The notes beneath the pieces are model-generated. The model was not told the origin of the DNA, made no database searches, and saw only the letters and a list, made by a program, of their open reading frames with translations. From positions 11,434,150 through 11,498,149 of the forward strand of contig RPFO01000213.1 of the NCBI GenBank assembly GCA_009746045.1: a stretch of DNA of 64,000 nt, written 5' to 3'. Of the stretch, positions 12,101-64,000 are shown piece by piece. Every line of letters begins with the position of its first letter. Within the stretch, counting starts at the first letter, position 1. The position numbers and the translations under genes were made by a program. This DNA comes from Mesostigma viride (Eukaryota; Streptophyta; Mesostigmatophyceae; Mesostigmatales; Mesostigmataceae).

Positions 12101-15100
12101 TGCAGGAATAAGAAGCCGTGTGAGAAGCCAAGCATCGCGCTCAGCTGGGGGGAGCACAGCCACTGGGAGCATCATGGAGGAAGCCGAGCCATGTGGGAAT
12201 CCGAGCACATGGGGCAGCGTAAAAAAGCATGGCATGACAGAGGACGATGGGGCACTTAGCTGCCGATACCCAGGCAGCAAAGTCCCCTCGAAATGGCTGG
12301 CTCGCCGTGTGAGCGAAACACAAATCAGCGTGTGAGGGTAACACAAATCGGCGTGTGAGCGAAACACAAATCGGCGTGTGAGCAAACCATTCTGCACGCA
12401 ATGAGAGTGCCCCAGACCCTGTTCATGCCACAAAGATGCCCGGTCATGATTGCCCACCACCTGGTCCCAAATGCCGCTCTGATGGCTGCAGCTCACTTAC
12501 AGGGGCCATGTTCACCATCCACGTCATCTCATCAGCATCATCATCATCACCATCATCAAATCATCATCATCATCATCATATCCCACCTCGTCATCATCAC
12601 CCACATAGACATGTCCCCCCCCCCCCCCCCGACTATCACCGCCCACAGCCATGCCAGCAGACCGTCTACCAAGTCATCACGATCCACGTACACGGTAACG
12701 ACATGGCCACAACCACCTGGTTGTCGAGCCTGGCGCGCTCCTCCTTGAGCCGTACCCAGAGCAATGCACGAGAGATTGTGTCTGAGGTTACCTCTACCTG
12801 CCCACCATCTCACCTCCACCGACACACAAACCCATTCGCCATACTTGACTGTCCAGCCCCGCCTGGTCATCACCACCATCCACGGTCATGCAATCGCACG
12901 TTATTCCTTGATTAACTCAATGACTTATTCGTTGATAATGTTCCCCGCTCACCCACGTACGTGACTGCAGCATCGCGACACCCACCCACCCACCTGGTTG
13001 TCGAACCCGACCCGCTCCTCCTTGAGCCGCTTCACGATCTGCTCGTACGTCTTGCGGATGCTCTGCGCCTCGTTGTACTTGATGAGCGCCTTGTCCAGCC
13101 GGTTCTCTAGCATGCGGATGTGACGCGTCATCGGCGTGTCCTCCTCGTGCGCGCGCGTTGCCGACAGGTCGCGATCCAGGTCGCGCAGCCCGTCCTGCAG
13201 TTGCTGGATCTGCCGCCGCTGCTTCTCCAGCCCGATGCGCGCGTCGTCGTATTTCTTGCGCAGGTCACCCACGTACTGCCGCATCTTCTCCAGCTCCTCT
13301 TGCTGCGAGTCGGTCTGCACCGGGTGCAGCAGAGAGGTTCGAGGGGCGGGGCGGTCAGGATGGTTGAGGATGGTGGGGTTAAAAGGTGGTGGCACAGATG
13401 GGCGGAATATATGGGATGATAAAGCCAAAGGGCGTGGTGACGTGAGCTTATATAATGATAAGTGGTACGTGGTCACGCGAGCTTGTACACTGATTACTGT
13501 TTTCCCTGGGATATAGAGAGGGAGTGTCAAGCCAGCACACAATTCAACCCACTGCGCCTTTCCTAGATAGTAGATACATGCCATGGTCCAAGGAGAGGAG
13601 AAAGACTGCCAAGAGAGAGCGGCGAGCTCCATGTGGGTTCACAGAGATCTAGAATGTGCTGTTGTCCCGCTGGCATGGTGATCTTCCAAGACCAGCTTGG
13701 CCCTATGCCCGGTCGCAAGCAGCCACACACACACGGCACGCCAGCTGCAACAAATACCAAACACTGCGATCCCAAAGGGGCACGAGCAGAGGCCATGGAA
13801 TGGTCGCTGTACAGCAGCATCCCCATGGCAGCACAGGAATGAGGTAAAGTACTAGTACGTCAGCAGTATTGTGTATCTTCCCTGAGAATGCCTCCACAGG
13901 ACTCTGGAAATTCACACTGCCCAGAAATTTGCGCTGCCTGGCAGGCTCCCAAACAACTAAGTTTGCTAGAACGCTGGCTGTACAGATGATACAGAGCCTA
14001 CCACCTGCTGTTCATGAAGACATCCAAAAATCGAACTACAGACCTTCCGCGTGTCTTGATAGATGCAAGATCCGCCACGCAGTGCCCCCCCTTGAGCTCA
14101 CCTTTGGCCGCACGCGGTCGGTGTGCATGGCAGCCAGCTGCGCGCGCAGATCCTTGTTCTCCTTCTTGACCGCCACCATCGTCTCGCGGTTCTGCTTGAT
14201 CGTCCATTGGGACGTCTCGTAGTAGGCCTTGCGGTCGCCCTCTGCGCACGCGTACGCCAGCGTGGAGGGAGTAGCAGTACGAGCCGTGGCGGCATCAGCG
14301 GTAGTGACGAAACAGGCAGAACGAAAGGATTGAGACGACTGATGCTGGACTGGGCCTTCCACCATATCGTACAGGCCCTAGGCCGTAAAAATATCTCATT
14401 CGGCCGTGTCCGGCGTGGGAATAAAGTGAAGTGAAGTGAAGTGAACTGAACTGAACTGAACTGAACGATGCCTTCCATGACATACACTGGCCGGTGTGGA
14501 CATGGGGGTATCAGCGCAAATGGGGGTGCATCAAGAGAGCCGGTGGTTACGGAGCAGACGAGCCCGTGAGAGAATGCAAGGAGAATAGGAAGGGCATGCA
14601 TCGGTTGCGCCCGTTTTTATTATATCTGATGTTTGGTTAGGTCATGATAAACGAATTGAAAGATTTTTAGAGTGTGCACTCGTGGTTTAGAAGAATAGAA
14701 CAGATGCCCTTGATCCCGTGGCTGCTTATCAAGGGGGGAAAAAAATCGGAAACCTCAACTAAGAAGTAAGACTTGTGGGATTTGTGATAAACAAGAAACT
14801 GGTTAGCCGCCTTCAAACTTTTGCAGGATTGTCAGTGACAAAAGAAATGGTTATAAAACACAGTGCATTATCCCACAGTGGAAATGTTAGACTGTGCAGC
14901 AGCAGGTCATGGCATTTTCGTACGGATCGCACAAGCAGCCGAGGTGAGGTAGCAGCAACGGTGGTTGTATCGGTGGTGGTGGTTGCCGGGGGTTGCAGGA
15001 GGGGGTTTGTTGCTGTGCTGGCACTGATGGTTGTGGTGGCAATGACGGTAATAACTGCGCGGCAGGGGTAGCGGTGCTGGGTTGTGTGCCAGCAGTGGTG

Positions 15101-16032
15101 GTGATACTTGCATTCTTGGCGGTGAAAATGGTCTTGCTGACACTGGCATGAGCTTGACCTAAAATATACCAGAAAAGCATGGCAGAAATGACCCCACGCC
15201 TAATAAAAGCTTGAAGGAGTGTGCTGCATCAGACAATGATTGCCCAGATTGGACACCAGCTGCGCAGGCTATATTTGTGGCGTGTTTTTGGTTGTGCTGA
15301 CAATAAACGGTTAGCAAGAAGAATAAACTAATTTAAACGTTCATAGGCTACATACATGGACCACACCACCTCGCCCTAGCATTCATGACGCAGATTCTGT
15401 CAGGTGCATGTGTCTGCAGATAAAGCTGAGGTAACAATAACAGCAAGCCCGCTGTCGGAGGGTTGGGGTTGGTTTTCTGAGTTTACTGCTGGCCTGCATC
15501 TAGCCTTTGTATAATACAAATAGAACGGTGAAGGCAGATGCGCCAAAGCAGCGTGCAAGGCAGCAGTGCAATACCGTAAGCGCCAGCAAGGTCAGCTTAG
15601 CAACCATGGCATACGATTCTACGCTCCCAGGCCGCCCCGGGCAGGATGTTGCTCAAACCGCGTGATCCCGATTGGGGGGCGACACTGGTACTTACGCCAC
15701 ATAAAGGAGGCCAAAAGGGCGTGCCTTGCCCTACATGCGTACAGCAAAACGGAGCACTATTGCTGGGGGGGGCGAATACTAACTTATAATAGAACTGAAC
15801 GAGTGCCTTAAGACTTTAACTTGGAAAGGTACATGAGGGTGGCAGTCCTCCATGACGTCGCTGGCGTATCCCATGCATACAACGGAAATATGTGTTTCTT
15901 CAGCTCAAAATCCCGCTCGCGTCAGGGAGGGCGGTAATAATGTCATTGCCATCACTTACCTAGCAAAGCATACTTCTTTTGTAGCTCCTCCAGTTCGGCA
16001 TCAGGGCTCATCGCTTTTGTAGTGGACTTCAT
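9131..16032 (-). CDS. Outer dynein arm docking complex coiled-coil protein (CCDC63/CCDC114/DC2 type), 8 exons
   Basis: Role in the family: a coiled-coil subunit that anchors outer dynein arms to doublet microtubules of the axoneme. Modelled minus-strand exons: 16032-15960, 14241-14102, 13314-12994, 12070-11957, 11337-11272, 10799-10725, 10432-9965, 9574-9131. All join with consistent phase at GT-AG sites and give 566 aa, the length expected of CCDC63/DC2 proteins. Signatures: an N-terminal Leu/Glu heptad (ELEELQKKYALL), EGDRKAYYETSQWTIKQNRE at residues 25-44, continuous coiled coil through exons 3-6, YSGSFGGGSRRIVDEF in exon 7, and PMSDETVPDVLQQCEMKALK at the start of the last exon; the tail is Ser/Lys-rich. 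The start ATG (16032-16030) precedes MKSTTKAMSPDAELEEL; a second ATG seven codons on is possible. Orthology among CCDC63, CCDC114 and DC2 is not resolved. Confidence 0.85.
12130..12170 (-). repeat. Echo of the exon 4 acceptor side in intron 3 of the docking-complex gene
   Basis: On the minus strand the acceptor and first codons of exon 4 (around 12070-12090, GCTCCCCCCAGCTGAG) recur about 70 bp upstream at about 12135-12160. The copy also has a canonical AG acceptor. Confidence 0.7.
12535..12640 (+). repeat. ATC/CAT trinucleotide tracts and poly-C in intron 3
   Basis: Dense CAT/ATC repeats (about 12530-12600) followed by a run of C at 12616-12630. Low-complexity intronic DNA with no other signal. 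Confidence 0.8.
12712..12752 (-). repeat. Echo of the exon 3 donor side in intron 3 of the docking-complex gene
   Basis: Minus-strand 12752-12712 repeats the end of exon 3 with its donor (13032-12991): CTCAAGGAGGAGCGC, then CTCGACAACCAGGTGG against TTCGACAACCAGGTGG. The GT donor context is preserved about 280 bp into the intron. Confidence 0.8.
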
Positions 16033-17096
16033 GGCGGCGTTTTGCTATATCTTAGGAATGATGTAGTACTACAACTTGTCACTCTCGATAATTTGCTACA
16101 TTTTGCGGTAAATTTGCTGCCGCTATTGGATAACGCGACCCTTGTTGAGCAGCCATCTCTCTAATTTTGATGAGTTACGCCAAGTGTTGTGGTCTTCTGC
16201 GCGTAATATGTACCGACGGTTGACAACGGTACATGACGCATGCATCTATTTTTGTTGATCTCATAGCGGCGACCTATTTGTGGAGGCTGGCAGAAGACAA
16301 TTCCAGACCCTGGACCGAGAACTGGACAACCAATAATAATTTCCAGGTAAATAGGTGTACGTTTATTCCAAATATAGCCAGTAGGTAATCCCTGCTAAGC
16401 CTAGGGTATCAAGATGTCAGTGGCTAAAACGGAGCCTTACTAGACCACGGAAGCCACTGGACAACCAATAATAATTACCAATTTGTGCCCTTGTTGTTGT
16501 TGTTGTTGCCCTTGATTGTGCCTTGGTCGCTTGTGCCGCTGTGAAAGCTGCTATCTTCAAACCAGTACAACATGTACTTCATAATTTTTCGCCGTACACA
16601 ATATAGTTAAAAGCTCTAATATCTCTCGTCGTGTTACGGTCGACCGGTCATTCGCACACTGTGCTGTCATGTAAGCGTACAGTGACTCATGGTCAAGCAA
16701 AGAGGATGGCTCGGTCCACTAGCCAAAAATACCGAGTTGTAGTCTTGCCGAAGCTCATCAAATGGCGAACTAAATTATGGCCGTGATTCGTGCAATGGCT
16801 TTGCCTAATTTCTATTTAACCTAGGGCGAACAAGAATGCTTGTTTTGCGGAACTCGAGTGTTCTTCGACAGCGGTAATGTAGCGTACGATTCTAGAAACA
16901 GGAGCAGCGTCGAGAATGGACATGCCAAACATAGAAACCATTCCCACCAGGTGCTTATCATTTTGATCCTGCAACACGGTGATGTTGCTGTCGAGAAAAA
17001 AGTCGAATAGACGGACAAAGCGGTAGTGACAGCTCCGGTTGTTGAACGGGTGATTGCGGGCGGATAGGCATTGAGCCTAGGTAGCAGCACCCTGCC
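16033..17096. promoter_or_regulatory. Divergent promoter region between two ciliary genes
   Basis: The start codons of the docking-complex gene (minus, 16032) and the dynein heavy chain gene (plus, 17097) lie 1064 bp apart, back to back, with no supported gene between them. The region is AT-richer than the flanking exons and contains a GTT trinucleotide tract near 16495-16510. I see no certain TATA box or named ciliary regulatory motif, so the promoter role is inferred from position. Confidence 0.45.
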
Positions 17097-39903
<22,807 letters not shown>

Positions 39904-45537: not shown

Positions 45538-46353
45538 GAGGGAGGGAGGGAGGGAGGGAGGGAGGGAGGGAGGGAGGGAGGGAGGGAGGGAGGGAGGGAG
45601 GGAGGGAGGGAGGGAGGGAGGGAGGAGGGGGAGGGAGGGAGGAGGGAGGGAGGGAGGGAGGGAGGGAGGGAGGGAGGGAGGGAGGGAGGGAGGGAGGGAG
45701 GGAGGAGGGAGGGAGGGAGGGAGGGAGGGAGGGAGGGAGGGAGGGAGGGAGGGAGGGAGGGAGGAGGGAGGGAGGGAGGGAGGGAGGGAGGGAGGGAGGG
45801 AGGGAGGGAGGAGGGAGGGAGGGAGGGAGGGAGGGAGGGAGGGAGGGAGGGAGGGAGGGAGGGAGGGAGGGAGGGAGGGAGGGAGGGAGGGAGGGAGGGA
45901 GGGAGGGAGGGAGGGAGGGAGGGAGGGAGGGAGGGAGGGAGGGAGGGAGGGAGGGAGGGAGGGAGGGAGGGAGGGAGGGAGGAGGAGGGAGGGAGGGAGG
46001 AGGGAGGGAGGGAGGGAGGGAGGGAGGGAGGGAGGGAGGGAGGGAGGGAGGGAGGAGGGAGGGAGGGAGGGAGGGAGGGAGGGAGGGAGGGAGGGAGGGA
46101 GGAGGGAGGGAGGGAGGGAGGAGGGAGGGAGGGAGGAGGGAGGGAGGGAGGGAGGGAGGGAGGGAGGGAGGGAGGGAGGGAGGGAGGGAGGGAGGGAGGG
46201 AGGGAGGGAGGGAGGGAGGGAGGGAGGGAGGGAGGGAGGGAGGGAGGGAGGGAGGGAGGGAGGGAGGAGGGAGGGAGGGAGGGAGGGAGGGAGGGAGGGA
46301 GGGAGGAGGGAGGGAGGGAGGGAGGGAGGGAGGGAGGGAGGGAGGGAGGGAGG
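45538..46353 (+). repeat. (GGGA)n array, about 0.8 kb, with scattered GGA slips
   Basis: Almost pure GGGA with roughly a dozen three-base interruptions. A mirror array lies in the right element at 49639-50238 as CCCT. Purine/pyrimidine asymmetry favours triplex or G4 structures. The long 'proteins' predicted through it are artefacts. Confidence 0.97.
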
Positions 46354-46363
46354 GTATGTATGA

Positions 46364-46527
<164 letters not shown>

Positions 46528-46624
46528 TACGTGTATGCATGGGTGGGTGGATACATGTGTATGTGTGTGTGGTGGGTGGGTAAGGGATCGACGTGTGTGT
46601 GTGTATGTGTGTGTGTGTGTGTGT

Positions 46625-46911
46625 GTGCTTCTCTGCTTAGGCGTTGGAGCACACGCATGCACTGGAGGAAGGGGGTGATGAAAACCCAGACCAACTGTCG
46701 CACCCACCCCTCCACCTTCACCAAGCGTAAGGCCAAGCGTGCCATGGGGGTAGGGTAGCGGACGCAAGTCACCAACGTCAGGGTGCTCACCAGGCTGGTG
46801 GATGAGAAGATGGGGGGCAGGCCCCTGTCAGATGCAGAGAAGAAGAAAAGGAAAAGGATGCAGCAGGGCCGTGAGAACGTGCCCCCGGGTGTGGCATTAG
46901 CCACTATATAG
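46625..46911 (+). pseudogene. Basic ORF remnant present only in the left TIR element
   Basis: One frame reads WRKGVMKTQTNC, then TKRKAKRAMGVG, an in-frame TAG at 46756-46758, then VRVLTRLVDEKMGGRPLSDA and a Lys/Arg run, ending at a stop near 46910. Composition and lysine clusters suggest the end of a nucleic-acid-binding or transposase-like protein. The right element lacks this ~290 bp, which accounts for most of the length difference between the copies. Confidence 0.35.
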
Positions 46912-47094
46912 CTAGCTAGCTGGCTAGAGGTGTGTTATTAATGCATTGTACTATAGGCATGTGCCCCCAAGTATGCCTTCCTGCATTGTAAATATGATGC
47001 ATAATGTAATGATGTGTTGTTTGGAACCTTCTGTACACCAAGGTGGAATGATTGCCATGAAACCCTTGTAAGAACAATAGAAAGCTGCTTTTTC

Positions 47095-47830
47095 TGTGGT
47101 ATTTATGCTAGCATCTGTCACCAATTTGTCATCCAACCAGCCTGAAGCTTTGTGGGCAGGCTGCATGGGATGTGTTTCGAACATGTGCCAAGTTCTAGCT
47201 CCAACTGAGTCCACTTGGGTCTTATATATGTGCAAACCTATGATGAAATACTTGGAAAACACTGAAAAACTGCATTTTGGGTATTTATGCTAGCATTTGT
47301 CACCAATTTGTCATCCAACCAGCCTGAAACTTTGTGGGCATGCTGCATGGGATGTGTTTAGAACATGTGCAAAGTTCCAGGCCCAACTGAGTTCATTTGT
47401 GTCATTATGTATGCATATGTGTGATAAAACCCTTAAAAAACCATGAAAAACTGCATTTTTTGGGTATTTATGCTAGCATTTGTCACCAATTTGTCATCCA
47501 ACCAGCCTGAAACTTTGTGGGCATGCTGCATGGGATGTGTTTAGAACATGTGCAAAGTTCCAGGCCCAACTGAGTTCATTTGGTGTCATTATGTATGCAT
47601 ATGTGTGATAAAACCCTTAAAAAACCATGAAAAACTGCATTTTTTGGGTATTTATGCTAGCATTTGTCACCAATTTGTCATCCAACCAGCCTGAAACTTT
47701 GTGGGCATGCTGCATGGGATGTGTTTAGAACATGTGCAAAGTTCCAGGCCCAACTGAGTTCATTTGATGTCATTATATATGCATACATGCCAGAAAGTGC
47801 TGAAAATACGGTATTTTTTGCTAGCAAATG
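47095..47830 (+). repeat. 183 bp tandem satellite, four copies, left element
   Basis: Units start GTATTTATGCTAGCATTTGT and include CATCCAACCAGCCTGAAACT and CATGCTGCATGGGATGTGTT. Copies begin near 47098, 47281, 47465 and 47647. Inner copies are nearly identical; the outer ones are more diverged. Confidence 0.88.
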
Positions 47831-47992
47831 TCACCATGTTACCATGGTGCCGACTCCCAAAAAATTTTTTGACCACATGGCATCATAAGATATCTGATTA
47901 GGTACCTTGGTGCCAAATTTGAGGCCAAACTGACTATTAGCCTATCTTGAAATAATTACCAGGGAACAAAAACGCGTTTTTGGATTGATGTG

Positions 47993-48166
47993 TAATTAAT
48001 TAATTAATAATAACACAAACGTTAAATATATAATTTAAAAAACTAAAAGCTAAATTAAAGCCTGAATACATGCCTAACTGTGCGTGCAGGAGCAAACTAG
48101 CCCCCATGCAATTGAATAGAATGTGTCAGGACTGGGGAAGTTGTACGCCGGCCGTTTTGTCACAAC
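47993..48166. other. 174 bp AT-rich spacer at the palindrome centre
   Basis: Lies between the inner ends of the two TIR elements, begins with TAATTAATTAATT and has no inverted symmetry with itself. It separates the arms of the 6.7 kb inverted repeat. Confidence 0.6.
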
Positions 48167-48319
48167 CACATCAATCCGAAAACCCATTTTCTTCCCCTGG
48201 AAATTATTTGGAGAAGGAATAATGGTCAGTTTGACCTCAAATTTGGCACCAAGGTTCCTTATCAGATATCTTATGATGCCATGTGGTCAAAAAAAATTTT
48301 GGGAGTCGGCAGCATGGTA

Positions 48320-49070
48320 ACATGGTGACATTTGCTAGCAAAAAATACCGTATTTTCAGCACTTTGTGGCATGTATGCATGTATAAAGACATCAAATGAA
48401 CTCAGTTGGGCCTGTGACTTTGCACATGTTCTAAACACATCCCATGCAGCATGCCCACAAAGTTTCAGGCTGGTTGGATGACAAATTGGTGACAAATGCT
48501 AGCATTAATACCCCAAAAATGCTGTTTTTCATGGTTTTCCAAGGGTTTTATCACACATATGCATACATAATGACACCAAATGAGCTCAGTTGGAGCTGAA
48601 ACTTTGCACATGTTCTAAACACATCCCATGCAGCATGCCCACAAAGTTTCAGGCTGGTTGGATGACAAATTGGAGACAAATGCTAGCATAAATACCCCCA
48701 AAATGCAGTTTTTCATGGTTTTCCAAGGGTTTTATCACACATATGCATACATAATGACACCAAATGAGCTCAGTTGGAGCTGAAACTTTGCACATGTTCT
48801 AAACACATCCCATGCAGCATGCCCACAAAGTTTCAGGCTGGTTGGATGACAAACTGGTGACAAATGCTAGCAAAAAAAAAAACCAAAATGCAGTTTTTCT
48901 TGGCTTTCCAAGGGTTCCAACACATGGGTGCCTATATCAATGAACTCAGTTAAGCCTAGAACTTTGCACAGCTCATAAAAACATCTATGTTAACTGCCCA
49001 CAGAGATTCAGACTGTTTGCATGACAAATAGGTGACAGATGCTAGCAAACATAGCACAAAAAATGCAGTT
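48320..49070 (-). repeat. 183 bp tandem satellite, four copies, right element
   Basis: Inverted counterpart of 47095-47830, with CAAAGTTTCAGGCTGGTTGG as its hallmark. Unit starts fall near 48500, 48690 and 48870 with a diverged copy toward 49070. Confidence 0.88.
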
Positions 49071-49289
49071 CCTAGTAATTATTTTTCAAGGGTTTCATCC
49101 CATAGTTGCAAGTCAACCATTCCAGTTTGGGATATATAGTCAGGTTCCCAACAACACATCTTGATGATATATTATGTGATATTGCAGGAAGGCAGACTTA
49201 GGGGCACACGCCCATGATACAACGTCAACATGTACATCAACAACACACACGTAACTTAGCTAATCATCATAATAAAAAGCACACCTTCC

Positions 49290-49625
<336 letters not shown>

Positions 49626-49638
49626 CACACAGTCATGC

Positions 49639-50238
49639 CTTCCCTCCCTCTCCCTCCCTCCCTCCCTCCCTCCCTCCCTCCCTCCCTCCCTCCCTCCCTC
49701 CCTCCCTCCCTCCCTCCCTCCCTCCCTCCCTCCCTCCCTCCCTCCCTCCCTCCCTCCCTCCTCCCTCCCTCCCTCCCTCCCTCCCTCCCTCCCTCCCTCC
49801 CTCCCTCCCTCCCTCCTCCCTCCCTCCTCCCTCCCTCCCTCCTCCCTCCCTCCCTCCGTCCCTCCCTCCCTCCTCCCTCCTCCCTCCCTCCCTCCCTCCT
49901 CCCTCCTCCCTCCCTCCCTCCCTCCCTCCCTCCCTCCCTCCCTCCCTCCCTCCCTCCCTCCCTCCCTCCCCTCCCTCCCTCCCTCCCTCCCTCCCTCCCT
50001 CCCTCCCTCCTCCCTCCCTCCCTCCCTCCCTCCCTCCCTCCCTCCCTCCTCCCTCCCTCCCTCCTCCCTCCCTCCCTCCCTCCCTCCCTCCCTCCCTCCC
50101 TCCCTCCCTCCCTCCCTCCCTCCCTCCCTCCCTCCCTCCCTCCCTCCCTCCCTCCCTCCCTCCCTCCCTCCCTCCTCCCTCCCTCCCTCCCTCCCTCCCT
50201 CCCTCCCTCCCTCCCTCCCTCCCTCCCTCCCTCCCTCC
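49639..50238 (+). repeat. (CCCT)n array, about 0.6 kb
   Basis: Mirror of 45538-46353 with scattered CCT slips. The predicted long Pro/Ser ORFs through it are artefacts. Confidence 0.97.
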
Positions 50239-50595
50239 CCCCATCATTCATGCATGCATTCATTCATGCATGCATCCACTCATTCATGAACATGCCTCCG
50301 TTGGCCAGGGGTTCAAAATGATGCAACAGGCACCAAAAAAGGGAGAAGGAGCCGCCTCCCCAACGTGCCGCCCGGCGACGGCAGCGATGGGCCCAGGGGG
50401 GAACAGTGCGCTTTGTCTTGTTCGCCGGGGTGAGCCGGCGGGGTGCGGGCACTGTCGCGTTTTATTTAGCCCGCCCGCCCCAGTCCTTCTCGGAGTGCCT
50501 TCTCAGGCCATGGCGTCAGGGTAAGAGTTCGTTTCGCCCGTCGCCGGACGCTTAAACCACTAGACTACGCCGGTTAATTACGACAAGAAAGCGGG

Positions 50596-50718
50596 TTACG
50601 ACGATAGAAACCAGTAGATGGTGGTTCTCCCGCACCCCGGGCACACCAGCGACGTCGGCAGCGAGCCCCGCCCGCAGGTTATGCAGCTGACGATGTTGCT
50701 CTGCCCAAGGGAAGTCAT
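50596..50718 (-). CDS. Small zinc-ribbon protein of the right TIR element
   Basis: 40 aa, MTSLGQSNIVSCITCGRG... with C12-x2-C15 and C26-x2-C29, ending YWFLSS. It is colinear without gaps with the left copy over 40 residues and shorter at the C-terminus because of an earlier stop. The frame is also open upstream to an ATG at 51015, but that part is not conserved with the left copy, so the short start is preferred. Confidence 0.42.
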   Translation of the reverse strand: MTSLGQSNIVSCITCGRGSLPTSLVCPGCGRTTIYWFLSS

Positions 50719-51245
50719 AAAGCTGCAAAAAAAGGGGTAAAAGCGATTAAATCCACGACATGCATTTTTGCCCCTGTTAGCGCTCCTATAAATCTGACTT
50801 TTACGGGAAAATCGCGTGCAACATGGAAACGCAAAATTAAGGGAATCGCTGTGCTGGATTTCTTCGAAATGATATATGGAATCGTTCGAAAGTGTGCCCT
50901 CCCACCAGTAGCGTCTAATCTGTGCTAGCCATGACCTTGAACACGCAGGGGTGGCTGCGCTCGGCGCGCGAAACTGGCCACTGCTGCGTGTTTGCCCTCG
51001 CACACACACACACAAAAAAGCTGTTTACCGACCTTTTTTTTGCAGAATAAATTTCCTTACGTCAATGCCGATCGAACAAGCGAAATCCGGTACAAAATGG
51101 CTTCGTAATCCGTGCACAGTAAATTTTCACGCTACCATAGCCTTCGCAATGGAATTTGCACTCAACATCTCCCGCGCGCACCGAATTTCGTCAATTTCAC
51201 CCCGGAATTACCGCGGACACTTTGGCGCGGCGTCGGATTGATGTG

Positions 51246-52480: not shown

Positions 52481-52483
52481 CTT

Positions 52484-53551
52484 ATTCTCCCAACCTTGAT
52501 CTCAACAGGACTTCCGGTCTCTTAGAAGAAATTCTAGCACCCTTATCGTAATCACCTACCATGAACACGTATCGTGCCTAGAACAATTGCATGCAGGCAA
52601 CATGTAATGGTACCACTGCCAACCATAGCCTTCATGAGAAAAAAAAAGGCTACACGACTAATCCTGTCGAGCAAGCACAGGAACCGTACTGACAATACTA
52701 CTGCTATGGTGCCTAGGATGCTGGCAAGAGCTTTACCTACACTGAATTATAGAAGTTTTACCAATGCCATACCCCGCGATACCGTCTTTCTGACCACGTG
52801 CTTGACATCCACAACGACCACCGCCAACGCCAAGGCATCAGGCAGGGCCCTTGCAGTCAAACAAAATAAGATGTAAGGAGAAGCGCGGTTGGCGATAGAA
52901 GCACATACGTTGGCCCAATCAGCAAGTATAAATAAGCCATGAAGGGTTTCTTACCTGGAGTTCCGAGACTGACATGCCGGGCGGGATAAAAATGGAGAGG
53001 TTGTGCATTCCAACGCTTGAGGCAAGCGGAAAATATGGCTGCCATCGGTAAAACTGTAGCATCATGGCACCAAACGTGGCCATAGTCTAGCTGAACATAT
53101 GGTGGGAATCAGACAAGTTTAAAATCATCATCATAATAAGCAACCAGCACGCCTGCTTTACGGGCTCCCTCGACCGACAACGCACCATCGGGACATGACC
53201 CAAAGAAAGCAAGCCTGCTTATATGCGCGCTCCTACATGCATCGAAAAACAATGCACAACGCAGAAGAACCAAGACAGCTCGCAGGAAAGAAAACAGCAC
53301 CAGCAACCCCGCTCGCCAGTTGCATGTACTTACAACTGTTGCAAGGTGATGGCGAGCACGGTCGACGGTAACTCGCCTGGCAACATTTGCTCCGCCTGGC
53401 AACATAACAAGGCAATATCACTCTTCGAAGTGAAGCTCAATTGGCAAATGCAGCAATCCAAAGGAGCAATCGATAGTAATGCCGACACTTGATTTACTGG
53501 ATTGGACCAGTCTTCCACGACAAACACTGCCAAGCTCTGGAGAGAATCCAT
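52484..53551 (-). CDS. Tentative exons of an unrecognised minus-strand gene
   Basis: Three pieces look exon-like. (1) 53551-53336, 72 codons from an ATG, ending at a perfect GTAAGT donor. (2) About 53053-52952: TACAG acceptor, then 33 codons (FYRWQPYFPLASSVG and FIPPGMSVSELQ) and a GTAAGA donor. (3) About 52860-52484: an open frame interrupted by one TAA. Phase between pieces 2 and 3 does not join cleanly and I recognise no family, so this may be a real gene with other exon limits, a pseudogene or chance. A further frame at 53609-53418 overlaps piece 1. Confidence 0.25.
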
Positions 53552-53609
53552 GATAAAATGCCTTTTCTATCGAATTGCAATTATTGATGACTTGCATGCT
53601 TAGCAACAA

Positions 53610-55857
53610 GATATTGAAACGTCAATCTACGTTTAGGTAAATGTCCATGCCGCCCCCGTCAATATCCGGAATGTTTCTCCCGCCATGGCTGCCGGGGGTC
53701 TGCTGTCTTGCACTTACGGCGCCTAACTACAGTAATTTACGCGCCCGCAGGCCAACAGGCCGACAGGCGAGGTTTGTATGCAGGCTACGGACCTGCTTGG
53801 AGTACCGCGCCACTAGGCTCGGGTGAGTCTGGATGCGCATCTTTGGTCCATAATTGGCTAATAAAAATATACCCATTTCCCCGAAAGTCTGGATGCGCAT
53901 CCAGACTCATGAGTCTGGAAAAATACCTCCAGATCCGGCTTCCTTCGCATCCGGATGGATCTGACGGATCCGGCTGTCGGATCCGGACGGATCCGGCTGT
54001 AATCGAAGAGTTGCCACGGACCAAAATCTGATACTCGCAATCCCAAAATTTATAAATTTAATGCGCCAAAATGTGCTGCTTTCTGCCGTTGTTGTTGTTG
54101 TTGTTGTTGCCCACGCCGCACATGGGCAGCAGAGATTTGGAACGGCCGAGGGCCAGGACACGTTGATTGTCCATATTTGAGCGGCACGGACCAATATCTG
54201 ATACTAACAACCCCAAAGATTTGGGCCAAAATGTGCTTTTTTCCCCTACCGTAAGTTCTTTTATAGTAGTCTCTCGCCAACTGTTTCACTTCGTCTTTTC
54301 CGGTGAAATGGGTGTTATTTTTATTTCCACTTGGAAAGGTCAGGGCAACTGGGCAACGCCACCCAGCCCGGCCAGCCGAGCCAAATCTCAAATGGCCGGC
54401 GATTGCAAGTTGTCAACCGGCGTTGAGTGGAGTTGAGTGGACCCAGTTGCCCGACAGGGTTAGATAACCGGCGTTGTTGTTTTGGTCCGGCGTTGTTATC
54501 TAACCGGCGTGCGAACCGGCGTTGTAAACTGACTGACTACTAGTGGTTTACTGACTGACTGAAAGTTGTCATGGACGAGAAACATGTGACGATGGATGCA
54601 TCGTCCATAAACGGTTTTTTTGTATGTAGCATTTATGTAGTATATGCGGCTGCAGATCCACCGAGCGTCAGTGGCGTTGGATCCAACTAAACTGAACTGA
54701 ACGTCTGAAGATACATTATTGATTTGACACTTGGCAAATGGTGCCACTTGTGTCAGTTTTTTCTCGCCAATCGTCATGCCAAGATATTTTCCGGGTAAAT
54801 GGGTATTTTTATTAACGTCATGCCAAGATATCAAAGAGACAACCAGCGCAGGCCAGAAATCGATATATTCTGATGCCAAGATATATTCTGATGCCAAGAT
54901 ATCGTTATATTCTGTGTGTTCAGCCACGTGCGAGCACGATTGATCCTTGTCCGAACTCCTAAACTAACGACGCTTGAGCGCATGCAGAAATGTCACCCGC
55001 ACAGTACAGGAGTCATGGTTGTTCCTCGCTTCAAGCTTGCGCTTCCAGATTGCAAATCCGCTGGAAATCATGTGGCGATCGATCTTAACTCCGAAACTAA
55101 CGACGCTGGATCGCCTGCAGTGCAAATCCGCTGGAAATAATGTGGCGATTGATGTGAACTCCTAAACTAGCTAACGACGCTGGAGCGCCTGCAGTGCGCC
55201 TGCAGCAATGTCACCCGCACAGTACAGGAGTAATGGTTGTGCCTCGCTTCAAGCTTGCGCTTCCAGATTTCAAATCCGCTTGTCGACCCATTCGTTGCGT
55301 CAGAGTATTAGACGAACCCCGAAGCTTGCCTTTTCCACCAAATTCATCCTGTAGAACTTGGAATTTGGCTGCATCATCAAGGAGTACGTACATGATCATA
55401 ATTGCAGTATGGACCTCTCGCCGGTGGCCTTGTCAAATTTGCGGCTGCTTTAGCTGGTAATCACATTGCCGGTGCCGGCCGCTGTGCATGTGGACGCTCA
55501 AATTCATTCGATCCGGGTCCACTGGCGCATTGGCGCATGCGCATCCCCGCGCGCCGTTTGATGATATTGCTCTCGGCAATGACGTCGCCGATAGCGAACG
55601 TTAACGTACTTAATTGGTGAGCGCCGGGTCCTACGCACTAGTTTTCCGGCTGAAAAAACGACCTTGTGGTCAACTGCAGCTGCTGCAAATCAACGCGGCT
55701 CGTTGGCGCACGACCGACGCGTCCTCATGTCACGACTCGTCGGGTGAGAACCCAGTATAGCGGATTAATTAGTCATGATCATCAGCTTGGACATGTATAT
55801 GAATTTCCTGCTCGTGTAGTTCAGTAGGTCAACTATGGAAGCGTCAGGGAGGGGGGG
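53610..55857. other. Intergenic region with several local duplications
   Basis: No supported gene. Seen: repeated GTCTGGATGCGCAT units (53825-53905) and GGATCCGG-rich units (53930-54000), (GTT)7 at about 54088-54108, a duplicated 60 bp motif around ACGGACCAAAATCTGATACT (54015-54080 and 54186-54235), repeated AACCGGCGTTG (54410-54520), and a repeat at 54955-55290. The last 200 bp before 55858 would hold the phosphodiesterase promoter, with no motif I can name. Confidence 0.5.
54955..55290 (+). repeat. Compound tandem repeat, two long copies and one short
   Basis: AATGTCACCCGCACAGTACA and the following CTCGCTTCAAGCTTGCGCTT occur at about 54990-55045 and 55207-55265; CTAACGACGCTGGATCGCCTG-type units (variants) occur three times, and GCAAATCCGCTGGAAAT twice. 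The pattern fits successive unequal duplications. Confidence 0.8.
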
Positions 55858-58800
55858 ATGACGGGGGCACTGTGGCATTTGTGGTGGAGGTTTGTCGCCA
55901 CAGGCAACCAAATTGCCTCATGTGAGCAGCGCCAGGTCGATCGAAATTGCAAAGGCAAAGAAATTTTCGATTCCCCTCCAAATGTCGAGTATGAAGTAGA
56001 TCGGATAGCTAAGGTGCGACCTGCAAGGCTACCTGGCAATCGCTACATGTTTGCTACGACAGCAATAATCCTTCTTTTTATCATCAGCGCTGTCGTTGTA
56101 GTGTCTGCCTTGTTAACGTGGCATTTTAGCCTAAAAACAACGACGGTGGCTTTTGACCGGATGTCGGAGACCCTACGAGAAGACGTCATGGAAAGTGCGG
56201 CTCATAAAGTCAAGGTGCGTACGTACAGTGGCGCGTGTTGCATGCAAAATTTAAAATCCGCCACTCCATGGAGTTCGCACACCTGTGTAAGCAGTATCTG
56301 CGCAGGTTTAATCCCCCACAGCGGATCGTCTGGCATTCCGTATATCAGACAAACGTTGTAATGCATACGTGGTTTCTTGCATTCTGTGGGTTTCATCGAT
56401 CGCTGCTGCTCTCCGGCATGTTTCCACACGGCTTTGGTGTTTATTCTTGCAGGTCTGACAGCTAGCCAAGCTGGCAACGTCTCGTGATAGTACTAGTGAT
56501 AGTAGCTATATGAGGACACATCGGTGAAGCCAGGCTAATTTGCATGGGTATTAACAATGGTCTTTCTACAGGCACAGCGTAACTACTAGACTGTGTAGTA
56601 ACGTGCAAGGATGCTCTGTGGGCCTTATAATAAAACTGCTGGTCACTAGACAGCCTAACATATCTCTGTGGGTGAGTTCGACGAGCAAAGTGCATTAAAG
56701 GCACATTACAGTACTGCAGTCAGCCGGGAGAGTGCTCTTACAATGCGCAGAATGGTCAACTACCCAATCTAGAACCCATCATAAGTACCCACGCATGCCT
56801 GCAGCTTTGTTTGATTATGCATGCATGTTTCTCAAATTCGTATTATCCACAGGGCTGCCAACTTTGTCCGGCCAGTGCTTCCTTTTTGTTCGGTCCTCTA
56901 TGGTAAGGTTGTTGGTGCCGGATGCGGGTAAAATGAAGGGGTCATGAGGAAGGTGGGGTCTGAAATGTGGGGGACATGCTGCATGGCCGGTGGGCGGGAC
57001 TCAGGCCGCCGGGGGTTATAGTAAACTTGAAGTAGCTGTAGTAACATGCACTGAGGTACTCGAACTATCTTAATTACGTCTTCAATCATGTGCAGGATTT
57101 CCTGGGCGCCCTCTCCCTGGACTCCTTCTCCGTGTTCAAGTGCCTGGAGACGCTGATGCCGGACTTCAGCCGCGCGACCATGGCCACACTTGTCCTCCGC
57201 TGCCTGTGGCACGCGACAGCTGTCGACGCCAGCATCTACAGCGCCTATGTCCTCACGGCCGATGTCCTCTTCTCCTCCTACCGGCGATTCGGTCCCGAGT
57301 CGGAGCTCCTCAATGCCTCCATCTCGGTCACTATACCCGGCCCGGTTAGTGACCCGAGTTTCCTGGGGTGGGTGTATGCCGCTGACGAGGCCACAGGAGA
57401 GCCGATACTGGATGGGGCGCGTGCCAGGATTTGCATCGCGGGCCAGTGTCCGGCGTCCGTGGGCATCCATGGGTCCGATAGGAATGGGGACCTGTGGGCA
57501 CCCCCGGCCCCGCCCCCGGACCGGGTACCCGCGTGGGTGGCTGCCAAGCGGTTGGCCCACGGGGAGTCACTCCTGCACGCCAGCATGGGTGAGTTACTTA
57601 TGGCCAGAACGGGCGGCTGGATGATCAATAGCCAGCATGGGTGGGTTGTTCATAGATAGATAGATGGTGACTTGTTACGCTGATACTTCGCTTCTTACGG
57701 TTTTCTTGCTCCTAGTCAATTTTTTCACTAACCTCCCTGATCCCCCCCTAATCTCGCTTGGTAAGTACTGGCTTCACTCAATTACGTCTCCTGTTCTACC
57801 CGTCACCTTCCGCCGTTATGCTGTCACCTTCCACTAGTATGCCTCTTCTGCATCCCATGTATTAGGTACTAGGTACCAGTCGGTGCAGTAATTCCACCCT
57901 GTTCGCAGAGCGTGGCATCACTCATTATAAGCTGCATATAATATCCCAACGGGGGCATGATTCCATGCATGACCCTTTTTAACAGTTATAATTCGGATGC
58001 TTTGCTTCTCCAGTCTGATTCTGTCATGCAGCATGATGTGTCTTGTTTATTACTCTGTAGTCTGTTTGCCCCATATTTATCCCATATCGGAATGGGCATA
58101 CATATAGTCATATCATACGGCATGTCCAACCAACAACCCCGTTTTCCCGTTATTACTGCGTGCATGCAGGCCTGGTGGGCAACTGGCAGCCGACACTCTT
58201 CCTCGTGAGGCCCCTGCGTGACCCTGCCACCAACAACCTGATGGCTGCCTGGACCATCACCTACCAGGCCAGCACCATCATCGAGTACCTGCAAACTCTG
58301 CCTATCGTCACCGCAATGGACGGAGTGGCTTACGTCACCATAGGTCCCAAGCTTGACCTCTTGTCGACAACGCATGGGTCCCTGGTGGCACAGCTGACGT
58401 CATCGGATGGCATACCGCCCCCATACTTGCCCGCGATGCATTCGGATGATGTCGTGGTCAGCACGTCCTCACGGTACGGCTGTAGGTTGGGGCAGATGCC
58501 ACACGATGGTTGGGTAGGTTGGGGCAGATGCTACACGATGGTTGGGTTGGTTGGGGCAGATGCCACACGATGGTTGGGATGGTTGGGGCAGATGCCACAC
58601 GATGGTTGGGTTGGTTGGGGCAGATGCCACACGATGGTTGGGATGGTTGGGGCAGATGCCACACGATGGTTGGGTTGGTTGGGGCAGATGCCACACGATG
58701 GTTGGGTTGGTTGGGGCAGCTAGATGCTACACGATGGCTGGGTTGGTTGGGGCAGATGCCACACGATGGTTGGGTTGGTTTGGGCAGATGCCACACGATG

Positions 58801-60564
58801 GTTGGGTTGGTTGGGGCAGATGCCACACGATGGTATACCAAATTTATTGCTGTTTGAGGCCAGTGAACGTGCTAGGACGCCATACCAACATCTAAGGCCT
58901 GTGTACTGACCTGTACTTGAACACGATACCAATTAAGTAGCTGCTTAATGACAGTGCAGGCACTGGCTATGCTAGGACACTTACCCCATAGCTCGAATAC
59001 CAATCAAATAGTAGTTGCTCAGGACAGTGCATGGGCGCTGGCTAGCCAGCTAGGACACTATGCTATGCACTACACTTATAAAATGTTTGTTCGATTGCCA
59101 TGCAGACACTCCACTAGGATACTCATACATTACGTCTCGGGTAGTACCATCTTCATTGCCAAGTGTGGATGGTCGGTAGTTGCTTAGGCTTGCGGGGCAT
59201 CCTGCGTAGGCACACCTGCCTGATGTGCAGTTAATGAGGGTTATAGGGAGACGAGGGGGGCCAGGGACAGATGTGTGAGCAGGTTCGAGGAGGGGATGGG
59301 GGGGCATCACGGTTGGTCTCACTGCTGCTGCTGCTGCACTACATGCGGGCCCACCGCCGCTGCACTACATGGACCCAGCCGTGACAGCATGTTCATTCTT
59401 GTTGTAGGCGCTGCCGCTGGCACTGCCGTGCATGCTGTTATTAGATGTGCCCAAGTAACTCGTTGTATGGTGGCCCGGCTCTGCTGGATGTGCCCCCGCA
59501 TGGCATTGTCATGTGCACGCAGGCACATGAACGCGACATTTGGCACGCTGCTCTTCGAGCAGCCGTGTGAGGCCGTGGTGGTCATCCCCGGCCACGGGAG
59601 GCATTATGTGAACAGCCAGCCGATCACGCAGCAGGGCCTATCGCTGACCATCTTCCTCGCGGTCCCCCGGGGGGCGTTCTGGGGGGACGTCGACGCGTCC
59701 AGGGACCACTCGCTGGGGTACACGGTCGTGACGGTCGCGGCTATTTTTGTCGCGGGCCTGATCGGCACGCTGCTCGCGACGGTGATTATGAGCCGGATGT
59801 ACCGATCGGCTGAGCAACAGAACCAGGTACTGATTATTTATTGTAGTACTTGGACCATATATCCATTATTGTACTTCTCAGGGCCGCACATCAGAGTCAG
59901 GTATTGGTAACCCAAAGTAGTATACCAAGTACCAACTATGATAGTAGTATACATCATCGACGCGCATCATGCCCAGGTGCGCCCACCCAAATGTGGCGGG
60001 CATGGTATATCTGCATTGGAGGGTGGGGTGGGGGGATGGGGTTCGGGAAGGGGGGGGGGCTGGTGGGCGGGCAAGCCGGTGGTTGGCTGTGGGTCGGCTG
60101 TGTGTGTGTGCGCGTGTGTGTTGAATTGGGTAGGCGTGGGTGGGTGGGTGGGTGGGTGGGTGGGTGGGTGGGTGGGTGGGTGGGTGGGTGGGTGGGTGGG
60201 TGGGTGGGTGGGTGGGTGGGTGGGTGGGTGGGTGGGTGGGTGGGTGGGTGGGTGGGTGGGTGGTGGGTGGGTGGGTGGGTGGGTGGGTGGGTGGGTGGGT
60301 GGGTGGGTGGGTGGGTGGGTGGGTGGGTGGGTTGGGGGGATGGGGTTCGGGAAGGGGGGGGGGGCTGGTGGGCGGGCAAGCCGGTGGTTGGCTGTGGGTC
60401 GGCTGCGTGTGTGTGCGCGTGTGTGTTGAATTGGGTAGGCGTGGGTGGGTGGGTGGGTGGGTGGGTGGGTGGGTGGGTGGGTGGGTGGGTGGGTGGGTGG
60501 GTGGGTGGGTGGGTGGGTGGGTGGGTGGGTGGGTGGGTGGGTGGGTGGGTGGGTGGGCGGGCGG

Positions 60565-60626
<62 letters not shown>

Positions 60627-60713
60627 CGGGGGGGCGGGGGGCGGGGGGGCGGGGGGGGGGGGGGGGGGGGGCGGGGGGGGGGGGGGGGGGGGGGGGGGGG
60701 CGGGGGGGGGGGG

Positions 60714-60755
<42 letters not shown>

Positions 60756-63700
60756 CGGGGGGCGGGCGGGCGGGCGGGCCATGGGAGGCTGCGTTAGGTG
60801 CAATGGTAATCCCGTACAGGGCCGGGAGAGGGAGAGGAGCATGACGATGCACAGACCTCTGAATTCAAAGTATTCATGCTTATGCTTAGTATGATGGCAG
60901 TAGTCAGTAGAAATGAGAGGTGATGAAAAGGAGAGCGCATGGCAAAGTCGGTGCATGGTATCAGCTTCACCGATCCCCTGGGGGCTTTACAGGGGGGAGT
61001 GCTGGTGACGGTCGTGTAGCATGACAAGACTTCATGGTTCACGCCAACAGACGCCTGCAAGCACCGACCTATATAGGCCAGCTGGGACTTTAGCTGGTTT
61101 CAAAGTGAGAGGTCCCTAGTAGGTCATAGACCTTGTCGGCATGCCCCGGTAATCGTATCCATGCAAGGTAACCCAACGGATACATGTTCATTGAGAATGA
61201 TATTTATTTTGGAAGGAACATGCAGGCAGCGGCAACTCCAGTGAATGGCAGAACAGGAAGAAAACTAACACCAGATACTTGTCAGTTGCCCTGTTGGGGT
61301 ATGACAACATCAGTGCCCCCGATAATGCGGAATCAAATTCGCGGCAGCCGTGCTTCAGCATGTCGTAGCTTTGTGACGGGAGCTCGCGAGCTCCTGTCAG
61401 AGCTTTGATCGTAGGCACTGGCCAGGTCCCTCAAAGTTTCCATTCTAATCCAAAACATGCACCGCTTTGTACCGTCGAAAATACCCTTGTTGTATCTACA
61501 ACTTTTGCGGACGTCAGTGCTTGGCAGCGCCTTTACCACGACCGCTGGAGCTTGCATGGAACCCCAAAACTCATGATTTATAACCCCGACCTTATTTCCC
61601 TACGTTTGTCAACCTGATTGTTCAATAAATGACCCACGCCCGGCAGCGGCTGCACCACAAGCTGGAGCTGGCGTCTAGCCGCCAAAGCAGCGACTTCTCC
61701 CAGGTGGACATGGGCACAGCGTCCGAGAAGCTGCACGCGATGATAGGGTCCCTGCAGGGTGGCCGCGTGCTCACGGCGGGACAGGTGGCGGCCATGCAGG
61801 CGCTGCTGGCGTCCAGCGATGACATGCACAAGCCGCAGTTCCTGCGCAGCATGCAGGTGGGCCTTGAGGTGAAAATGCATGGGCTTATGTTTATAGACTA
61901 CTAGCAGTATTTGTTTTAGTATATGCTATAGTATATGCTATAGCATAAGTTTATAGACTCCTAGCAGTATAGAAATGACGCCTTGTGCCGCCATGTCTGG
62001 ACCGTCGAGTTGATTGCGGCCCAGGCGGTTTTGTTGTCCCTAGGGTGCGCGCCTTCAGTATATTAACCATAATGACAATACCTAACAATAACAGAACAAC
62101 AAATAATGACAATGACACCCATGGACAGTTGCATGCGCAGCAAGCCTTCGCGGCATATGCATGACTTTTGAGGACACAGTAAAAGCTGGCGTACGCGGCA
62201 GGCACCGGGAGCATATCAGCAGTGTTCTGCCCCCTGCATCCACTGCCATGGATCACCACACTGCACACTGGCATGGACACGGTCCATACTTCAGAAGGTC
62301 ATCACGCGTGTTGTCCTCACTCACCAAACAGGTCTGGACGAGTTTTCCGCTAACCAGTTCTTTAGCCGATAAAAAACACAAATTTATGGCCGGCCGCGCT
62401 TCTTCCTAAGTAATCTTGACCATCGGACTAGCAGTTTGATGTGTGCTCGGCATCCCCTCGCACTGTTGTTCATTCTGCACCAACATATATGCGTATGAAC
62501 AGGGCACAGCGACTCGGACGCGAGGCATCGACAGGGAGACCGGTGCGTGGCTCGCCAGCCTGGCAGACCCCGGGGCACGCCTGCAGCAATGTAAGCCGAC
62601 CCTGCAATTCACATCCAGCAGCGGGATGCCCCCAAAGTCCCTGCGAACCCTCCAGATCATGCGGACCGTCAACCGCGGCGCGGCGGAGGAGATCATGGTC
62701 GCGCAGGGCCTGATCGCCAGCTCGTCGCCGATGTCAGCGCTCAGGGCCGGCGCGAGCGGCGGTGCGAGCACTGGCGCCAGTAGCTCTGCCGCACCTGGGT
62801 TGCCGGGGCTTGAGGGCACTGACGAGGCGACGAGGCTACGATTGGAGGTCCTTGACCACGTCCTTCAAGCCCTCGACTGCCCAGTTAACGGCCCTAAAGC
62901 CTTGCACCATCCATCTTCCGATCCAGTGCAGCGCCAGCTGTCGGTTTCGGGGCTGAGCTCGACTGCTGCGCATCCACGTGGGCCACCCACGGATGGCCAA
63001 CGGGTTTCCTATCAACTGGGTTCTGTGACATTGGTCAGGGATGACCGACGGCAATCCAGGGACATAGAAAGGGAGTGGGTCGCCCGTATCGTTGTGCGTG
63101 AGAGCGCTCCCAGTATCGACCCATCCCCATCATCGCCGGGTCCCGCAACGAGGGGTCACCAGGCGCTGTCGAGATATCAGGCGCTGTCACCAGATGCGGC
63201 ACCCTTTGACCCCGCGTCGGGACGCTTGTCGATCTCTACCATCGACTCCGACGTAGAGGCAGCACTTTTGACGGACGGACGGCCCAGCCTCATGCCGGAC
63301 CGTAGTAGTAGTACGAGTCCCCAATGGCGCACTGAAGAAGAGGATGTCTCGTTTATGACTTTGACACGGCTGACGTCGCTGTCTGCGGGGGATGCTGGCT
63401 GCTGTGCTCACCGGTCAGACCATCTCGAGGCGCAGGCCGGCGGGAGGGATCCTTCTTGTGCTGGCATCCTAGGCGGCGGTCTCGACGTGTTTGGGACCAA
63501 TGACTCGGGAGACCAGCTGATTGGAGCTGGCGGCGCAGCATCCATGCCCGTCCATGCCAGCATCGTGCCTGGCGGTGCTGGCGAGAATGCTTGCAAGTGT
63601 GCTGGCGGCTGGGATTACGCAGCGCTGGTGGAGAGCCTGCGGGCGCTGGGGACGTGGGAGCTGGACACGTTGAAGGTCAGCGGGGCCAGTGGTGGTCAAC

Positions 63701-63803
63701 CCATCCTGTTTGTGGGATACGCGGCGCTCCACCGCGCGGGGCTGGTCCAAGAGTTTTGCCTGCCACGTGGCGAGCTGGCGCGCTTCTTGATGGGATTGGA
63801 CCG
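55858..63803 (+). CDS. Receptor-like cyclic nucleotide phosphodiesterase, N-terminal six exons (gene continues off the window)
   Basis: Expected to hydrolyse cAMP and/or cGMP at a membrane under control of an extracytoplasmic sensor. Exons: 55858-56214, 57096-57588, 58170-58473, 59523-59826, 61647-61856, 62503-63803, with consistent phases. TM1 about residues 64-88 (TTAIILLFIISAVVVVSALL); then about 360 residues that begin with a long helix and end with a PITQQGLSLTIFLAVP-like strand, resembling a Cache-type ligand-binding region; TM2 about 451-474. The linker has TASEKLHAMIGSLQGG and DRETGAWLASLADP segments and a Ser/Pro-rich stretch. The last exon starts the PDEase_I fold: WDYAALVESLRALGTWELD, PILFVGYAALHRAGLVQEF, ELARFLMGLDR. 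The catalytic HNxxHA and HD metal sites would be in later exons. Family call is by motif order; the sensor call is weaker. An upstream exon cannot be excluded. Confidence 0.75.
57631..57650 (+). repeat. Echo of exon 2 end with donor (phosphodiesterase intron 2)
   Basis: AGCCAGCATGGGTGGGTT repeats the true junction GCCAGCATGGGTGAGTT (57580-57596) 51 bp into the intron, donor GT included. Confidence 0.7.
58480..58845 (+). repeat. 32 bp minisatellite, about 11 copies, in phosphodiesterase intron 3
   Basis: Unit GGGCAGATGCCACACGATGG followed by TTGGGTTGGTTG, repeated head to tail directly after the exon 3 donor at 58474. It is open in several frames on both strands (for example repeats of ICPNQPNHRVAS on the minus strand), which yields spurious ORFs. 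Confidence 0.93.
58850..59075 (+). repeat. Degenerate tandem repeat in the same intron
   Basis: Units containing GCTAGGAC(AC/GC), ACCAATTAAGTAG/ACCAATCAAATAG and GACAGTGCA occur two to three times. Confidence 0.6.
60030..60780 (+). repeat. Duplicated (GGGT)n blocks followed by about 210 nt of G/C-interrupted poly-G (phosphodiesterase intron 4)
   Basis: A leader of about 110 bp (GGGGATGGGGTTCGGGAAGG, then CAAGCCGGTGGTTGGCTGTG and GTGTTGAATTGGGTAGGCGT) plus a GGGT array occurs twice (60031-60331 and 60336-60556). Then 60567-60777 is G broken only by single C residues. No coding content; the Gly/Trp or Pro/His ORFs are artefacts. Confidence 0.95.
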
Positions 63804-64000
63804 GTGGGTAACGTAGTAACTTCTTTCGGCAGTCATTCATGACATCAGTCCATTCATGGTCTTGGACCGGTGCGTGGCCTGGACCTTGTCATAGTATGTG
63901 TTTGTTTTAGCGTTGTTATTCAGCCAAGAGTGCCGCTGCATGAATCGGGCTGGGCTTGAATCGGGCCTGCTGCAACAAATTACCTTCCCTCCTATGTTTC
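63804..64000 (+). other. Start of phosphodiesterase intron 6, with a donor echo
   Basis: The donor is taken as GTGGGT at 63804, which leaves a split Arg codon. 63855-63875 (GTCTTGGACCGGTGCGTGG) repeats the exon end GGATTGGACCGGTGGGT. The acceptor is outside the window. Confidence 0.6.

Follow-up and report, generated by a model that had tools for sequence, protein, structure and literature searches.

Gene Models and Detection of Intron Echoes

The stretch of DNA analyzed here (the window) comprises 64,000 nucleotides of the streptophyte Mesostigma viride (GenBank assembly GCA_009746045.1, contig RPFO01000213.1). It carries three genes, for an axonemal dynein heavy chain, a docking complex subunit, and a PDEase_I phosphodiesterase (PDE), whose introns contain copies of the adjoining exon edge together with its splice site. 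Such an intron copy is termed an echo. The gene models are as follows:

9134..16032, minus strand: outer dynein arm docking complex subunit (ODAD3/CCDC151-like) gene; 7 introns; P0121; from spliced alignment, a PDB match, and the names of relatives
17097..39903, plus strand: axonemal dynein heavy chain gene; 19 introns; EukProt Mesvir1/12265, P0001; spliced alignment with 100% identity over the model
55858..64000, plus strand: PDEase_I gene; 8 introns; P0241; from spliced alignment and Pfam PF00233; continues into the downstream locus L002

All three models are 100% identical to EukProt Mesostigma (jgi/Mesvir1) proteins over the aligned parts. In the dynein gene, 18 introns were placed by spliced alignment and intron 19 (36896–37245) by hand, and the C-terminal exon was taken from an open reading frame and Pfam. 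PDE intron 6 straddles the window end, and introns 7 and 8 lie beyond it, in L002. The three genes thus provide 34 introns and 68 junctions, counted over the window and downstream L002.

Each junction was represented by a 60-nt probe (40 exon and 20 intron bases), which was aligned to its own intron and to 100 dinucleotide shuffles, the lowest attainable p being 0.01. In this self-alignment of exon edges against shuffled introns, a check proposed on a genome-wide scale in an earlier sequence-only reading of the window, 15 of the 68 junctions reached the lowest p and 20 reached p ≤ 0.05. Values of z > 5 were obtained at 14 junctions in 13 of the 34 introns, namely (D, donor; A, acceptor) dynein 1A, 2D, 5D, 7D, 8D, 9A, 11D, and 14D; docking 3D and 3A; and PDE 2D, 4A, 6D, and 8A. 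At a score of at least 28, junction probes matched their own intron in 13/68 cases and other introns in 1/2244; exon-interior probes matched the adjacent intron in 0/219 cases and their own exon in 2/113. The claim of the sequence-only reading that echoes are recurrent and far above chance is thus borne out. Its list of about thirteen cases stands with two exceptions: the match in dynein intron 13 is weak (11 nt, p 0.03, z 3.7), and the echo proposed for dynein intron 16 was not found by the own-intron shuffle test, in which it did not reach p 0.05. Dynein 1A and PDE 4A within the window, and PDE 8A beyond its end, had been absent from that list. The echoes within the window are given below, with the corresponding segment at the exon border marked as functional:

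12134..12161, minus strand: acceptor echo, docking intron 3; functional 12060–12087; tandem type, distance 73–74; z 16.5
12699..12752, minus strand: donor echo, docking intron 3; functional 12976–13029, distance 277; z 17.3
18560..18588, plus strand: acceptor echo, dynein intron 1; functional 18660–18688, distance 100; z 6.5
18899..19013, plus strand: donor echo, dynein intron 2; functional 18812–18927; true tandem, 87-bp unit
21297..21341, plus strand: donor echo, dynein intron 5; functional 21201–21245; z 21.2; intron flank similar too (z 7.7)
24955..24995, plus strand: donor-side echo, dynein intron 7; functional 24787–24827; z 9.8; degraded, gapless identity stopping short of the donor
25719..25756, plus strand: donor echo 1, dynein intron 8; distance 94
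25831..25872, plus strand: donor echo 2, dynein intron 8; distance 213; z 19.3
26975..27015, plus strand: acceptor echo, dynein intron 9; functional 27103–27143, distance 128; z 16.9
28715..28838, plus strand: donor echoes, dynein intron 11; tandem 94-bp array; functional from 28621; another copy at 28899–28946
32429..32465, plus strand: donor echo, dynein intron 14; functional 32350–32387; z 15.0; second echo at 32569–32589
57631..57647, plus strand: donor echo, PDE intron 2; functional 57579–57595; z 6.6
61523..61555, plus strand: acceptor echo, PDE intron 4; functional 61642–61672; z 5.9
63853..63875, plus strand: donor echo, PDE intron 6; functional 63787–63809; z 5.2; weak

Occurrence in Other Genes

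The echo phenomenon is real and extends past the window. A second gene set consisted of seven other dynein loci with 82 introns, in which P0060 is exact and introns of the other six loci were kept only where at least 4/8 homologous proteins agree on both sites. At a score of at least 28, matches were found for 18/82 donor and 10/82 acceptor probes, as compared with 37/13284 for other introns and 1/164 for exon sequence 70–130 bp from the edge. When both sets were pooled (34 + 82 = 116 introns), the edge exceeded the control 99th percentile within 30–130 bp in 22% (donor) and 13% (acceptor), with lower values further in; sequence 70–110 bp inside the exon did so in only 0–1%. All of the copies are direct: at a score of at least 28, 41 of the 232 junctions have a direct copy and none an inverted one, and two inverted copies appear at a score of at least 24. 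An assembly artefact is an unlikely source, because the copies are diverged and differently spaced.

The sequence-only reading had also suggested that introns lengthen in this way. Consistently, echo-bearing introns are longer (median 657 versus 452 bp; 28 versus 88 introns, p = 0.0012), a comparison in which longer introns also offer more room for copies. The genome searched was the 440-Mb assembly of 2243 contigs. The published NIES-296 assembly spans 442 Mb in 2363 scaffolds, obtained by PacBio sequencing with Illumina polishing, and that paper links the long Mesostigma introns to repetitive elements (PMC6947507).

Two Classes of Copy and Their Preference for Exon Borders

In the tandem class, the intron part is repeated as well. 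This class comprises 9 junctions (4 assigned by computation, 5 by hand), including dynein 2, 5, and 11 and docking 3A, with units of 69–101 bp. In the compact class, only the exon edge (8–59 nt) and 0–22 nt of intron agree, and the DNA between the copies is mostly unrelated. It comprises 29 junctions, of which 26 belong to it alone; dynein 5, dynein 11, and C1945-6 were counted among the tandem junctions as well. Flank similarity at p < 0.05 is absent from 36 of the 43 compact pairs and from 15 of the 21 with an exon identity of at least 0.88. The acceptor copy in intron 23 of C1690, with 26/26 identical exon bases, is an example. The compact copy lies 57–188 bp from the edge in 24/34 pairs. 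Short tandem duplication across exon–intron borders, as the sequence-only reading had it, therefore describes 9 junctions but is not supported as the general rule.

Probes from intron interiors reach a score of at least 28 against their own intron as well, in 40/283 cases in the window genes and in 141/612 in the second set, as often as donors there, which speaks against a border effect as such. Borders were accordingly first read as no richer than interiors, a reading overturned only once the classes were split. For the tandem class, 9 junctions stand against 14 interior arrays (9/23, P 0.053), near the chance share, and there is no clear border preference. For the compact class, 29 junctions stand against 18 interior clusters, with an expected junction share of 12% under simulated detection loss and 32% when interior detection is set to 0.2 (P 3.2e-5), i.e., P ≤ 3.2e-5 throughout and an approximately tenfold enrichment over intron interiors. 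In these figures, the class split and thresholds were chosen after the data were seen, and the likelihood filter was applied to the junction set and not to the interior set. Before counting, hits were dropped if their exon part fell outside 8–70 nt, as were three that connected the two borders (class DA); the filter also lost gapped pairs, e.g., dynein 14 at distance 79.

Filler DNA

The DNA between the two copies (filler) was compared for 22 of the 29 nearest copies, the 7 outside 20–160 nt being left out; 17 of the 22 are 30–120 bp long. No shared family was found among them (top score 21, versus 22–24 in shuffles). Genome-wide searches with two fillers revealed no dispersed copies, the only matches being the query locus, edge included, or the paralog clade to which the filler belongs; the filler of C1690 intron 23 has no second copy in the assembly. 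Copying from nearby DNA was rejected as a general rule, since direct local matches with a score of at least 26 were found for only 5/22 (26, 29, 30, 32, and 118); inverted ones were found for 2/22 (26 and 27).

PDE Paralogs and the Older Copy

The PDEase_I family is strongly expanded, with at least 157 domain matches in the genome (150 of 259 candidates scored), so that a single homologous intron can be compared across many paralogs. In the first PDE subfamily, this intron carries a donor echo with z ≥ 3.5 at 9/16 loci, and two further loci, L028 and L038, have one at z 2.6 or by alignment. One echo and its filler are common to six paralogs, of which L034 has a later insert. In their majority consensus, a 21-nt segment across the donor (13 nt of exon, 8 nt of intron) is duplicated without a mismatch; past this segment, only 7/37 intron-side columns agree. 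The duplication encloses ~74 bp in the shortest members, i.e., an insert flanked by a direct target duplication, as in the staggered-break events of Daphnia. A genome-wide search with one version of this unit gave matches at these six loci only. The start of the L035 intron had appeared by eye to be a template of the filler; alignment tests gave no support for it.

The paralog L025 lacks the echo. Compared with the clade consensus, its intron resembles the post-echo sequence (z 3.9, p 0.002) and not the filler (z −0.1); against three individual post-echo sequences, z was 4.8, 3.1, and 1.5, versus 0.3 for filler. At acceptor echoes, moreover, a pyrimidine-rich tract is kept past the copied bases (0.647 versus 0.506; 13 echoes, P 1e-4). 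Because L025 aligns with the post-echo sequence rather than the filler, and because pyrimidine tracts persist beyond the copied bases, the echo is probably the former junction, and the exon-proximal edge and the intervening DNA are the newer part.

L025 and L026 lie ~10 kb apart on contig C1775; their exons are 95% identical and their introns hardly alignable, a contrast that suggests exon-limited gene conversion. On contig C1668, L023 and L024 are PDE paralogs ~13.5 kb apart that are identical over 1887 bp, including the intron.

Decay of the Echoes

When edge and echo were compared in 33 gapless pairs, each from a different junction, the mismatches were 30/297, 36/305, and 54/301 at codon positions 1, 2, and 3 (10.1, 11.8, and 17.9%), a pattern that would fit a freely decaying echo combined with synonymous change in the exon. 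Within the six-paralog clade, divergence is 0.152 for the echo, 0.202 for the filler, and 0.081 for the exon edge; codon-position distances were unusable there, as indels shift the frame. Judged from these comparisons, no clear constraint on the echoes is apparent. Where compact junctions have several copies, the farther copy is the more diverged in 4/5.

Origin of the Echoes

We consider it somewhat probable that the echoes arose by recurrent insertion-duplications at exon borders, through which old junctions were retired into introns. A segment of ~15–60 bp spanning a splice junction would end up duplicated on both sides of new, other DNA. The exon-proximal copy would hold the functional splice site, leaving the protein unchanged, and the other copy would be the former junction, now decaying inside the intron. 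Repeated events would stack old junctions inward, the intron growing from its ends, and plain junction-spanning tandem duplications (69–101 bp) would be a second, ordinary source. We infer that the echo is the older copy and that such events begin when breaks in exon edges undergo error-prone repair. The copies end at or just past the splice motif, are direct only, and recur in unrelated genes; the outer site is the exon border in the gene models, and other DNA lies between the duplicated junction segments. Since events inside exons would survive only when the edge and splice site are restored, the survivors would span the junction.

Several observations weigh against this reading. The exon survival argument fails to explain the scarcity in intron interiors, where all events should survive, and a uniform break-repair process does not predict the border preference. 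No source of the fillers was found by family comparison, local matches, two genome-wide searches, or paralog introns. Occurrence is uneven: C1690, with echoes in 14/27 introns, supplies 14 of the 28 echo-bearing introns, two genes (8 introns) have no echo, and in the second PDE subfamily only 1/10 introns has a donor echo with z ≥ 3.5. Some flank similarity is left in 7/43 compact pairs (~2 expected), and 11/27 exon-side columns agree beyond the 21-nt duplication, leaving room for a longer original duplication. A local-alignment test of L025 was weaker (z 3.6, 1.8, 1.8, 1.7, −0.2, and −0.2 for the six post-echo segments; −0.6 to 1.9 for fillers), and in the combined exon tree L025 falls among the echo-bearing paralogs (bootstrap 67–82), so that it may be a reversion that lost the unit; alternatively, its exons may have been converted from neighboring L026. 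Finally, the echo diverges slightly less than the filler within the clade, and dynein intron 8 departs from the stacking order, its more distant echo resembling the edge more closely than the nearer one does.

Ordinary short tandem duplication in all non-coding DNA appears unlikely as the general source. On this view, duplications spanning a junction would be tolerated because the outer site stays in use, and the intron part would decay later, leaving only the exon edge recognizable. The near-chance share of the nine true tandem junctions, their unit lengths, which are similar to the distances of nearby compact copies, and the residual flank similarity in 7/43 pairs agree with it; the lack of such similarity in 15/21 well-preserved pairs, the drop of the six-paralog consensus to 7/37 right past the copied donor, and the over-representation of compact copies at junctions do not. 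Repair directed at exons, with an allele or paralog as the template, would account for the interior scarcity, but no such template was found. In an aborted gene conversion of this kind, a break in an exon edge would be repaired by copying from the template across the junction into the template's intron, and end joining to the old edge would follow. The filler would represent the end of a foreign intron whose splice signals work, and intron interiors, lacking homology to one another, would be left untouched. This would explain the restriction to exons, the direct orientation, the copies that stop near the motif, and the working acceptors beside new filler, and L025 and L026 offer 95% identical exons with barely related introns. 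Yet the clade filler consensus matches 0/8 other paralog intron starts (z −0.5 to 0.8), and the assembly holds only one copy of the filler from C1690 intron 23, so we hold this explanation to be rather doubtful. The same doubt applies to its fuller form, in which the aborted repair copies the edge, the splice site, and the foreign intron, the new junction splices at once, and the old one is retired.

Selection for a role in splicing, as decoys or alternative sites, could also have preserved the copies, so that of an old tandem duplication only the edge and motif were conserved. The GT is kept in 26/30 donor echo pairs, and the echo recurs across the first PDE subfamily. This retention is, however, near that of free decay at ~11% per base (estimate 24/30), and both codon-position and within-clade rates fit near-free decay, which makes such selection quite improbable. 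Insertion of an introner or other transposon with target-site duplication would likewise give an insert with a direct duplication on both flanks; with 22 fillers of no sequence family, two genome searches without copies elsewhere, and a variable duplication length, it is disfavored as highly improbable.

Comparison with Known Systems

In potato RdRp (PMC4974935) and Drosophila (PMC2891723), local DNA including splice-site sequence is reported to be duplicated, as in the echoes; there, new introns or positions arise, whereas here existing junctions are displaced, mostly by compact copies with other DNA between. The neointrons of Daphnia, ascribed to staggered double-strand breaks, share direct repeats of exon ends produced by insertion-type repair, and internal repeats lengthen young introns in that system (PMC4202315); in Mesostigma, by contrast, the repeats are ~15–60 bp and sit close to one end of introns that were already established. 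Rogers and Bendich (2025; PMC11782384) likewise read border repeats as insertion scars, but compared the 5′ with the 3′ border (mean 11.4 bp), whereas here each border is repeated in its own intron. Introners (PMC9860276) are also DNA inserted in genes, but no shared element family was found here, nor a new intron within an exon; the echoes sit in introns of shared position, e.g., across 13 PDE loci. Small tandem duplications made by Pol alpha-primase at break ends (PMC8355091) are a possible source of the tandem class, although alone they explain neither the filler nor the border preference. There is no proto-splice-site signature, the in-register identity of 5′ and 3′ borders averaging 0.282 versus 0.248 off register (maximum 0.400 in both), with no single intron prominent. 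A published description of such echoes was not found among the titles and abstract openings given by the literature searches.

A direct view of how established introns lengthen is rare, and the echoes would be fossils of exon edges once joined. A single genome could be used to measure how fast, in which direction, and by what mechanism introns grow and splice sites turn over; to those who study DNA repair, the preference for exon borders poses a concrete puzzle. If aborted repair does capture junctions, introns would preserve earlier exon ends in layers, and gene conversion would lengthen introns as a side effect.

Other Features of the Window and the Genome

Between the dynein and PDE genes, positions 45538–50239 form a large inverted arrangement in which GC skew flips near 48 kb. 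One side contains GAGG/TGCG microsatellites and a 184-bp tandem array, and the other contains an array of the reverse-complement 184-bp unit and CCCA/TCCC microsatellites. Open reading frames at 169–2894 on the minus strand resemble, by motifs, what we take to be gag and reverse transcriptase of a gypsy-type retroelement. A 29-nt sequence starting GTAAGTGGGCAACC and ending GATGCAG accounts for the larger part of the matches listed in a genome pattern search, on many contigs and both strands, and is probably part of a repeat.
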